A program made the translations under genes and the position numbers. A stretch of DNA of 64,000 bases. It comes from Alphaproteobacteria bacterium. Its GTDB lineage: Bacteria > Pseudomonadota > Alphaproteobacteria > SHVV01. Below, one piece after another: positions 38,686-42,073 of this stretch (position 1 is the stretch's first letter; each line of letters begins with the position of its first letter). The stretch is from the NCBI GenBank assembly GCA_016869275.1, contig VGEO01000005.1, positions 1-64,000 of the forward strand, given 5' to 3'. The notes beneath the pieces are model-generated. The model searched no databases. It saw nothing but the letters and a program-made list of their open reading frames with translations, and was not told where the DNA came from.

Positions 38686-39402
38686 TCAGTAGTACTGCCA
38701 GCAGTTGTACTGGTTGTAGTAGCAGTCGCCGGTGTGGATGACGGCGCGGCGCACCGCTTCCTGGGCCTGGGCGGTGGTCGCGTAGCGCGCCATCGCGGTC
38801 GGCGCGAGCGAGCCGTGCTCTTCCTCGACGTCCGAGGCGTGGACCGCGAATGACTGCATCGCCGCCTCGGAGAGGTCGTAGTGCTTGCGCAAGCCCTTCT
38901 CCAATTCGCCGAACACCAACGGGTTGATGCGCTCGGCCGCGAACGAGAGCGCCGACAGGCCCTCGACGAACGGCCGGTTGCGCATCACCACCTCGAACCA
39001 GTGTTTCAGGAGCCACGACTCCATCTTCAGGCCTTCCTTGGCGCGGCGCTTCTTGGTCCAGCCCAGCTCCCCGAGTGTGGTGTCGATCAGGCGCATGTGG
39101 CCGGCGGTTTTCGAGCTTTCGCCGTACTCCTCCTCGAGCATGTTCTCGAGGATGCCCTGGCGGAGGTCGTCGTCGGGGCACTTCGACCACAGCACGCCGA
39201 ACAGCTTGTTGGTCGGGTCGGCCCACGATGCGAACTGATGGAGCCAACCGGCGATCTGGTCCTTGGTCGCCTTGCCGCTCTTGACCGCCATCACGAACGG
39301 ATGACGGGTGCGGTCGCGCACCTTGTCGAACAGCGCTTTCTCGAGCTCGGCTACCAGCTGATCGTTGGAAACGGCCTTGGCTTTGACTTCGACGACGCCC
39401 AT
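38686..39402 (-). CDS. PqqC/TenA-fold (heme-oxygenase-like, putative diiron oxidase) protein, paralog 1
   Basis: HPFVMAVKSGKATKDQIAGWLHQFASWADPTNKLFGVLW, ILENMLEEEYGESSKTAGHMRLI, VHASDVEEEHGSL, terminal YYNQYNCWQYY. Confidence 0.8.
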   Translation of the reverse strand: MGVVEVKAKAVSNDQLVAELEKALFDKVRDRTRHPFVMAVKSGKATKDQIAGWLHQFASWADPTNKLFGVLWSKCPDDDLRQGILENMLEEEYGESSKTAGHMRLIDTTLGELGWTKKRRAKEGLKMESWLLKHWFEVVMRNRPFVEGLSALSFAAERINPLVFGELEKGLRKHYDLSEAAMQSFAVHASDVEEEHGSLAPTAMARYATTAQAQEAVRRAVIHTGDCYYNQYNCWQYY

Positions 39403-39454
39403 CGGGATCTCCTTGCCTATCGTTCCTGCGCTGCGGCCGGCGCGGACGCGGGAC

Positions 39455-40243
39455 TCAGTAATAATTCCAGACGTTGTACTGGTTGTAATAGACGTCGGCG
39501 GTGTGCGTCACCGCGAAGCGGACCCCGTCCTGCGCCTGCTTGGTGGTGGCGTAGCGGCGCATCGCGATCGGCCCCAAGGAACCGTGCTCTTCCTCGACAT
39601 GCGAGGCGTGCACCGAGACCGAACGCAGGCCGTCCTCGGTCAGCCGGTAGTGTTTGCGCAGGCCCTTCTCCAGAAGCGCGAACACGAACGGGTTCATGCG
39701 CTCGGCGGTGAACGAGGTCGCCGCCAGCGACTCGACGATCGGGCGGTTCCTGATCACGACCTCGATCCAGTGCTTCTGCAGGCACGACTCGGGCTTGATC
39801 TCGTCGGCTTCCTGTTTCTTCTTGCTCCAGCCCAGTTCCACGAGCGTCTTGTCGATCAGCCGCATGTGGCCCGCGGTCTTCGAGAACTCGCCATACTCTT
39901 CTTCGAGCATGTTTTCGAGGATGCCCTGGCGCAGGTCATCGTCCGGGCAGCGCGCCCACATCACCCCGAACAGCTTGTTCGAGGGGTCGGCCCACAGCGC
40001 GAATTGATGCAGCCAGCCGGCGATTTGGTTATTGGTCGCCTTGCCGGCCAGGACCGCCTGCACGAACGGGTGCTTGGTACGGTCGCGCGCCTTCTGGTGG
40101 ATGATCGCGTCGAGTTCCTGGGTCAGTTCCTCGGTGCTGACGGCACCGACCGCGCGGACGATCGTTGGGGCATTGCGCGCCGGCGCGGTCCGTTTCGCGC
40201 TTTTCTTACTGGGGGCTTTCTTCTTCGCCGCTTTCTTGGCCAT
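39455..40243 (-). CDS. PqqC/TenA-fold (heme-oxygenase-like, putative diiron oxidase) protein, paralog 2, Lys/Ala-rich N-terminus
   Basis: MAKKAAKKKAPSKKSAKR..., HPFVQAVLAGKATNNQIAGWLHQF, ILENMLEEEYGEFSKTAGHMRLI, VHASHVEEEHGSL, terminal YYNQYNVWNYY. Confidence 0.8.
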   Translation of the reverse strand: MAKKAAKKKAPSKKSAKRTAPARNAPTIVRAVGAVSTEELTQELDAIIHQKARDRTKHPFVQAVLAGKATNNQIAGWLHQFALWADPSNKLFGVMWARCPDDDLRQGILENMLEEEYGEFSKTAGHMRLIDKTLVELGWSKKKQEADEIKPESCLQKHWIEVVIRNRPIVESLAATSFTAERMNPFVFALLEKGLRKHYRLTEDGLRSVSVHASHVEEEHGSLGPIAMRRYATTKQAQDGVRFAVTHTADVYYNQYNVWNYY

Positions 40244-40276
40244 CGCCGTGCTCCGTTTTCTTGCGGTCGTCTCGGC

Positions 40277-40999
40277 TCAGTAATATTGCCAGACGTTGTA
40301 CTGCTGATAGTACATCTCGGCGGTGTGCTTGACCGAGAAGCGGATGCGCTCCTGATCGTAGGCCGAGACGCCGTAGCGCTGGATCGCCATCGGCCCCAGG
40401 CTCGCGTGCTCTTCTTCGACGTCGGACGCGTGCACGGCGACCGACTGCAGCGCCGTTTCGCTCAACTTGTAGTGCTTGCGCAGGCCCTTCTCGATCTTGG
40501 CGAACACTTTTTGGTTCATGCGCTCGGCGGTGAACGAGGTGGCGCAGATCGCCTCGACGAACGGCCGCCGGGTCATGATGCACTCGAACCAGTGATGCAG
40601 CGCCCACGACTCGTAGCGCTTGGGATCGTTGGCGCGGCGCTTCTTGTCCCAGCCGATCGCATCGAGGGTGCGGTTGATCAATTCGACGTGGCCGGCGATC
40701 CCCGACTGGTAGCCGTGCTCTTCCTCGCGCATGTTTTCGAGGATGCCTTCGCGGATGTCGTCGTCGGGGCAGTTCGCCCACATCTCGCCCAGATACTTGT
40801 TGCAAGGGTCGGCCCAGGACGCGAATTGGTGGATCCAGCCGGCGAACTGGTCGAGCGTGGCGGTGCCGTTTTCGACTGCCAGAACAAAGGGATGGTAGAT
40901 GCGGTTGCGCTCAGGCGCATCGACGATGTCTTCCAATTCTTTGATGAAAACGTCGTAGGGAAGGGCCTTGCGATCCTCGATCTTTTCGGCGACGGCCAT
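40277..40999 (-). CDS. PqqC/TenA-fold (heme-oxygenase-like, putative diiron oxidase) protein, paralog 3
   Basis: HPFVLAVENGTATLDQFAGWIHQFASWADPCNKYLGEMW, ILENMREEEHGYQSGIAGHVELI, VHASDVEEEHASL, terminal YYQQYNVWQYY; ATG at 40999. Confidence 0.8.
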   Translation of the reverse strand: MAVAEKIEDRKALPYDVFIKELEDIVDAPERNRIYHPFVLAVENGTATLDQFAGWIHQFASWADPCNKYLGEMWANCPDDDIREGILENMREEEHGYQSGIAGHVELINRTLDAIGWDKKRRANDPKRYESWALHHWFECIMTRRPFVEAICATSFTAERMNQKVFAKIEKGLRKHYKLSETALQSVAVHASDVEEEHASLGPMAIQRYGVSAYDQERIRFSVKHTAEMYYQQYNVWQYY

Positions 41000-41194
41000 C
41001 GGGCAACTCCTGAGCAATGGGATCGGCCATCCTAGGGCTTCGGGTCGGGCCCCGACAAGTCCGGCGAATAGCCCTAAGTCGGCCACCGGTAAGGGGCAAA
41101 TTCTGCCGCGTTAACCGAAACTTTCCGAATGCGGGGCGATAACCGGGGCGTGCCGAAGGTCTTTTTCTCCGAGCTTTGAGGGGTAACGAGGGGA

Positions 41195-42073
41195 ATGCTG
41201 AACAAATCGACGTCTCCGACCATGAGCGGCGCCGAAAAGGCGGCCGTGGTCATGCTGGCGCTCAACAACGGGCAGTCCGTCAACCTGCTCGCGCGCATGA
41301 AGGAAACCGAAATCCAGGAAATTTCCGCCGCGATGGCAAAGATCGGCGTGATGAAGTCGGCCGCCGTCGAAAATGTCCTGGGCGAGTTCGTGAGCCGCTC
41401 GCCGTTGGCCGGCCAAGACGAGCCGGCGCCCGCGCCGGGAGCCGCGCTGCCGCAATTGCTGGCAGGGATCGAAGACGAACGCTTGGCTGCGTATCTCGAA
41501 AGCGAGTATCCGCAGACGATCGCCGTCGTGCTCTCGCAGCTGCCGCGCTCGCGCTCGGCGCGCCTGATCCAGCTCTTGCCGACCGAGGTCAGCGCCGACG
41601 TCATGAGCCGCATGCTGACGATGGGCGAGGTCAAGCCGGTGGTGATCGCTTCGGTCGAAAAGGCGCTCAAAGCCGAACTCGAGCGCGGGTTGCCCAAGCG
41701 CCGGCGCGGAACCATGGCGCCGGTCGCCCCGACGGCGGCGCCGGAAACCGCGACCCTGCGGCCCAAATCCGCGACCGCCATGATCACCTTCAACGACCTC
41801 TCGAAGCTCGACGATCCCAGCGTCCGCACCCTGATCGGGGCGGTCGACCGCGCCATGCTGGCACTCGCGCTCAAGGGCGCGTCGGACAGCCTTCGCGATC
41901 GCGTCGCCCTCGGCATGACGCCGCGTGCGGCGCAGATTTTGCGCAGCGCGATCGATAGTTTGGGACCGGTCCGCTTGCGCGACGTCGATGTCGCCCAGGC
42001 CGCGATCGTCGCGACCGCGAGCCGGCTCGCGGCCTCGGGTGCGATCGCTTTCGCCCGGATCGCGCGCAACTAA
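41195..42073 (+). CDS. FliG-like flagellar motor switch protein, outside any flagellar cluster
   Basis: MSGAEKAAVVMLALNNGQSVNLLARMKETEIQEISAAMAKIG; LAAYLESEYPQTIAVVLSQLPRSRSARLIQLLP; ITFNDLSKLDDPSVRTLI...LALALKGASDSLRDRVALGMTPRAAQILRSAIDSLGPVRLRDVDVAQ: N, M and C FliG segments. Confidence 0.85.
   Translation: MLNKSTSPTMSGAEKAAVVMLALNNGQSVNLLARMKETEIQEISAAMAKIGVMKSAAVENVLGEFVSRSPLAGQDEPAPAPGAALPQLLAGIEDERLAAYLESEYPQTIAVVLSQLPRSRSARLIQLLPTEVSADVMSRMLTMGEVKPVVIASVEKALKAELERGLPKRRRGTMAPVAPTAAPETATLRPKSATAMITFNDLSKLDDPSVRTLIGAVDRAMLALALKGASDSLRDRVALGMTPRAAQILRSAIDSLGPVRLRDVDVAQAAIVATASRLAASGAIAFARIARN

Follow-up and report, generated by a model that had tools for sequence, protein, structure and literature searches.

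Three tandem genes on an alphaproteobacterial contig appear, on balance, to encode paralogous small-molecule oxidases of the heme-oxygenase-like dimetal oxidase (HDO) superfamily, whose heme-oxygenase-like (HO) fold places them with CADD and PqqC, and to form a new and narrow subfamily. The encoded proteins are called P1, P2, and P3 here. The genes lie in a window of 64,000 nucleotides (the whole stretch of DNA analyzed; contig VGEO01000005.1). The window genome (G000) is a 3.6-Mb alphaproteobacterial MAG of a freshwater genus, 95.75% complete and 6.5% contaminated. Reactions are known for about a dozen HDOs, of more than 10,000 sequences (PMC13108848).

Organization of the Triplet

All three genes are on the minus strand; P3 comes first, followed by P2 and then P1, with gaps of 33 bp (P3/P2) and 52 bp (P2/P1). 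Their positions and those of the other features are listed in Table 1. The P3 reading frame is open up to a GTG at 41086, yet the ATG at 40999 matches the orthologue. Pairwise identity is 67% for P1/P2, 58% for P1/P3, and 55% for P2/P3. The earlier note, made from the sequence alone, had described three consecutive same-strand paralogs with colinear motifs; this description held, and the motifs it quoted are exact. The terminal sequence YY[NQ]QYN[VC]W[QN]YY is likewise present exactly at the C-termini of all three proteins.

Orthologues of all three are found in a second species of the genus (G001). The dN/dS values between the window and G001 are 0.055 for P1, 0.117 for P2, and 0.056 for P3 (NG86 estimate), which indicates purifying selection; the values are approximate because orthologue dS is near or above 1. 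Orthologues with high dS and low dN/dS exclude a chance origin of the triplet.

Table 1. Positions of the triplet genes, their motifs, and related features. Plain ranges refer to the window; ranges with an L prefix refer to other loci.
Feature	Position	Strand	Remarks
P1	38686..39402	-	238-aa HO-fold protein; third gene of the triplet
P2	39455..40243	-	262-aa HO-fold protein; middle gene; Lys/Ala-rich N-terminal extension
P3	40277..40999	-	240-aa HO-fold protein; first gene of the triplet
FliG-like protein	41195..42073	+	divergent upstream neighbor; related coding region also upstream of the triplet in G001
P1 motif HASDVEEEH (H188..H196)	38815..38841	-	from alignment; helix break in model
P2 motif HASHVEEEH (H212..H220)	39584..39610	-	
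P3 motif HASDVEEEH (H190..H198)	40406..40432	-	
P1 C-terminus YYNQYNCWQYY	38689..38721	-	end of last helix (residues 211-237)
P2 C-terminus YYNQYNVWNYY	39458..39490	-	
P3 C-terminus YYQQYNVWQYY	40280..40312	-	
Rieske ferredoxin beside HDO	L016:5345-5680		
Rieske ferredoxin beside HDO	L011:4740-5039		
Rieske ferredoxin beside HDO	L065:4711-5046		
Rieske ferredoxin beside HDO	L056:5318-5698		
Canonical/degenerate HDO pair	L017:7006-8802		
Canonical/degenerate HDO pair	L061:3278-4811		
Canonical/degenerate HDO pair	L064:1320-2936		

Family Membership and Fold

All three proteins score above the gathering threshold of PF14518 (iron-containing redox enzyme), at 50.7-57.1 bits against 28.9. They also pass PF03070 (TenA/PqqC) weakly, with 23.5-25.5 bits against 22, below the PF14518 match. 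AlphaFold models were made for P1 and P3 from seven input sequences each. Both have a heme-oxygenase-like alpha-helical fold, with pLDDT and a second score of 89.5 and 0.85 for P1, and 89.8 and 0.86 for P3. The best Foldseek matches are the CADD structures 1rcw and 8va9 (TMq 0.78-0.81, TMt 0.86-0.89), followed by PqqC, TenA, UndA, and BesC. A sequence search of the PDB returned CADD and NePabS first and PqqC after. PF14518, the models, and the structure matches thus agree with the placement proposed in the earlier note, a CADD/PqqC/TenA fold and putative dimetal-oxidase membership.

The closest NCBIfam models are those of CADD and PqqC, and both cut-offs are missed. The CADD model (TIGR04305, cut-off 200 bits) scores 60.4, 45.6, and 54.9 bits, about 140 bits short. 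The triplet proteins resemble CADD and NePabS in fold, in length, and in the aligned Glu-His pair of the first metal helix, but differ by 4 residues inserted between this Glu and His, an extra residue in the last ligand helix, and the replacement of two CADD residues described below. The PqqC model (TIGR02111, cut-off 240 bits) scores 18-35 bits, about 200 bits under. The fold of PqqC is similar (TM 0.79/0.74), and its HP and GW motifs near the N-terminus can be aligned, but the triplet proteins carry candidate metal ligands, and no pqqE above cut-off occurs in the genomes. PqqC identity was rejected on the TIGR02111 score and on the pqqE result, as the note had anticipated in calling these proteins not ordinary PqqC. 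The superfamily fold (UndA and BesC by Foldseek) and the His/Glu ligand pattern are shared with SznF, UndA, and BesC, whereas the alpha-3 spacing is noncanonical, a biosynthetic cluster is absent, and the UndA and BesC matches are weaker than those to CADD.

Candidate Metal Site

Residues E91, H102, E157, H188, E193, E195, and H196 (P1 numbering) are invariant in the alignment of the nine proteins called the tail family here. E137 is likewise invariant; in the SznF-type 3H/4C arrangement, an auxiliary helix supplies one more Glu ligand. The usual HDO ligand set (3H/3C) is spread over three core helices, the last of which carries H-x3-D-x2-H. In the nine members this last ligand helix has the sequence H-A-S-[DH]-V-E-x-E-H, one residue beyond the canonical pattern. 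In the triplet proteins the D of this pattern is replaced by E or shifted, and E, H, E, H, and H are present. Most other HDO paralogues of the same genome and genus keep the canonical pattern (VHDVADEDHS) with full ligand motifs. These paralogues are members of the same Pfam family and can be aligned throughout, including the [YFW]-[ND] of the last helix, but they fall in a separate clade.

The earlier reading of this site stood in part. The H-x7-H of the last helix is real, and corresponds to H-x3-D-x2-H with exactly one inserted residue. The SznF-like E-x9-H spacing also exists, but it depends on a third Glu, which the C31 paralogue replaces with Asn. The pair that does not vary is E91-x10-H102, and it aligns with the CADD Glu-His pair mentioned above. 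Both AlphaFold models interrupt the last metal helix just after its first His (H188 in P1). Given the extra alpha-3 residue and the interrupted helix of the two models, the site may have changed or lost its ligation, and the doubt previously expressed about metal ligation was justified. The alpha-3 helix of the HDO core is flexible and the metal cluster labile, and a mononuclear variant is known through loss of alpha-3 ligands (PMC13108848). P1-P3 probably bind metal, with V192, E193, and E195 as candidates for the metal-facing position of the last ligand helix.

The Aromatic C-Terminus

Of the last 11 positions, 6 are aromatic; no other segment of 11 residues has more than three or four. The tail can be aligned to the normal last helix of the other HDO paralogues, in which an aromatic residue followed by Asp or Asn is common (FLLYDD, MFWDG). 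An added module was rejected as an explanation on this alignment, [YFW]-[ND] being general there. The tail is degraded in the C28 paralogue (YYRQWMSFKHYA), and orthologue identity is 82-91% in the tail and 84-93% in the body, so that the tail is not clearly higher.

A functional Tyr/Trp tail had been suggested by analogy to the self-sacrificing chemistry of CADD. The self-sacrifice residues of CADD are Tyr27 and Lys152 (PMC11965152). Aligned to 9pj4 and 1rcw, the triplet proteins have Val at the Tyr27 position and Leu at that of Lys152 (Lys159 of NePabS), so the analogy is without support. Tyr at the Tyr27 position is absent from every paralogue in the alignment. These comparisons favor a specialized form of the ordinary last helix over a sacrificial tail.

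Distribution and Phylogeny

The triplet is present in the same order in G001 (record Baikal-deep-G48), so that neither the tail nor the tandem arrangement is confined to one genome. Two further tail-family genes stand singly elsewhere in G000 (C31 and C28), and one single homologue was found in another MAG (L019). The record of this MAG is titled 'Bordetella parapertussis isolate AH-24oct19-201', a label that is doubtful. No tail-family member was found in the third species of the genus (G002, 86% complete), and no further members in 385 genomes of the class and 399 of the phylum (about 1,000 genomes overall). A scan of 84,980 genomes, limited to two peptide patterns, matched two loci only, both of them already named. 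The spread is very narrow. Two species of a single genus carry the triplet, and the genome of L019 is the only one besides theirs with a tail-family member.

The tail family forms one clade (support 100/99). Within it, the window copies group one by one with their G001 orthologues, which places the triplication before the species split. P1 and P2 are a firm sister pair (99/98), while monophyly of the trio has moderate support only (91/69).

Gene Neighborhoods

Downstream of the triplet are genes for a NUDIX protein, cysteine synthase, AlaX, and a sulfurtransferase, which give no clue to the substrate. Upstream in G001, the FliG-like region (L018:4088-5357) is apparently split over two frames, as a pseudogene or through an assembly error. 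Next to the triplet there is neither a ferredoxin gene nor a pathway gene, the closest Rieske-motif protein being 8 kb off, and no folate genes are close to it. Neighbors of the C28 tail gene are a VOC gene, SsuBC-type transporter genes, and a gene for an isochorismatase-type hydrolase. The C31 tail gene has TRAP-transporter genes on one side and NMT1 genes on the other, and Rieske oxygenases are more distant.

By a rough count, Rieske oxygenases occur about once per 21 kb in the window and about once per 28 kb around HDO genes. They were rejected as context evidence for HDOs on this lack of enrichment. A Rieske oxygenase near an HDO gene is weak evidence alone, as such genes are common throughout G000.

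HDO Genes in the Genus

PF14518 has 22 matches in G000, 15 in G001 (63% complete), and 5 in G002. None of 56 other Alphaproteobacteria has more than 5, and 45 of them lack any match. The PF14518 proteins of the genus split into several clades in the tree.

Small Rieske ferredoxin genes lie 16-69 bp from an HDO gene at four loci, which cover three genomes (all three species) and two HDO clades. As context evidence, only ferredoxins at this distance are specific. This proximity suggests redox-fed HDOs in the genus, and the small ferredoxin is a candidate for the dedicated electron donor of the adjoining HDO.

Several canonical copies are next to VOC, FAA hydrolase, and NMT1-type transporter genes; those in C34 and C97 have VOC dioxygenases, an FAA hydrolase, aldo/keto reductases, and NMT1-type transporters as neighbors (some neighbor names, such as aldo/keto reductase and SDR, were assigned from reading translations rather than by family search). 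In a genome outside the genus (L072), the HDO gene likewise has a VOC gene beside it. In all three species a canonical HDO gene is paired with a degenerate one without the last-helix ligands (C97 of G000, C26 of G001, and C60 of G002), and the G000 pair adjoins NMT1-type ABC transporter genes. A catalytic/non-catalytic heterodimer is a possible reading of these pairs.

Chorismate-binding enzymes of PF00425 (TrpE, PabB) were not found in G000, G001, or G002, although folP is present. A lack of PabB is also a mark of CADD-family host genomes. The other genomes lacking PF00425 in the sample of relatives are all 1.9 Mb or smaller. This absence suggests Trp and pABA auxotrophy in the genus or an unknown pABA route. 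An HDO-type pABA synthase is thinkable.

Interpretation

If the triplet proteins are small-molecule oxidases of the HDO superfamily, they would be cytosolic enzymes, each probably binding a labile two-metal center. In P1 this putative center would be formed by E91, H102, E157, H188, E193 or a neighbor, and H196. A partner encoded elsewhere would supply the electrons for O2 activation, and a small organic molecule would be oxidized. The three copies arose by tandem duplication before the split of the two species; they have probably specialized in related substrates or form mixed dimers. The last helix, with its aromatic residues, would most likely pack over the active site or the dimer interface.

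An unlikely but not negligible alternative is that the dimetal site has been lost or changed. The insertion in the last metal helix would then cost the protein one or two ligands and leave a cofactorless site, as in the metal-free PqqC- or TenA-like proteins, or a mononuclear one, as in the one-metal FlcD-like proteins of the HO fold. The one-residue insertion in all nine members, the helix break in both models, the closeness of PqqC and TenA in fold, the passed PF03070 score, and the mononuclear variant on record (PMC13108848) argue for it. The PqqC cut-off is far from reached, however, and the His/Glu candidates, including H188, E193, E195, and H196, are invariant across divergent copies, which would be odd if metal had been abandoned. 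We regard it as improbable that the paralogues make up one hetero-oligomeric oxygenase in which some copies are structural. Such a complex would fit the gene order and tight spacing that two species share, as well as the canonical/degenerate pairs elsewhere in the genus. The close homologues at C31, C28, and L019 stand alone, though. The three-component system suggested in the earlier note is a possibility; no window copy looks like a dedicated non-catalytic subunit, since all three keep the same ligand candidates.

The least probable of the readings weighed here is a CADD-like self-sacrificing p-aminobenzoate synthase, or a variant in which tail tyrosines are consumed. In its favor, CADD is the nearest structure, the C-terminus is rich in Tyr and Trp, and the genus has folP without a chorismate-binding enzyme. 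Against a pABA synthase stand the Val and Leu at the sacrificial positions, 60 bits where 200 are required, the lack of folate genes close by, and the homology of the tail to a normal last helix; the third species also lacks PabB and has no tail family. CADD identity was rejected by sequence on the cut-off and both sacrificial residues, and residues, cut-offs, and absence from G002 likewise argue against the tail family as the pABA synthase of the genus. A far-reaching combination, in which a new alpha-3 dimetal geometry and an aromatic-helix radical relay operate in a mixed three-paralogue oxidase while HDOs of the genus replace chorismate-derived steps, is highly improbable.

With up to 22 HDOs per genome, an altered-helix subfamily, and small Rieske ferredoxins next to certain HDO genes, the genus is a natural test set for relating the ligand helix and redox partner to HDO chemistry. 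It could also show whether HDOs serve catabolism, beyond natural-product synthesis.

Other Observations

No papers on the source MAG or on PqqC/TenA expansions were found in the literature. A viral structure search gave one match under 1e-3, which was uninformative, and a plasmid search gave two matches only, both at 24.5% identity. Promoter and terminator scans gave no signal exceeding shuffled controls. Lys/Ala-rich N-terminal extensions are present on several HDO paralogues (window 40171-40243, L012 near 4600, and L017 near 8650; for example, MAKKAAKKKAPSKKSAKR).
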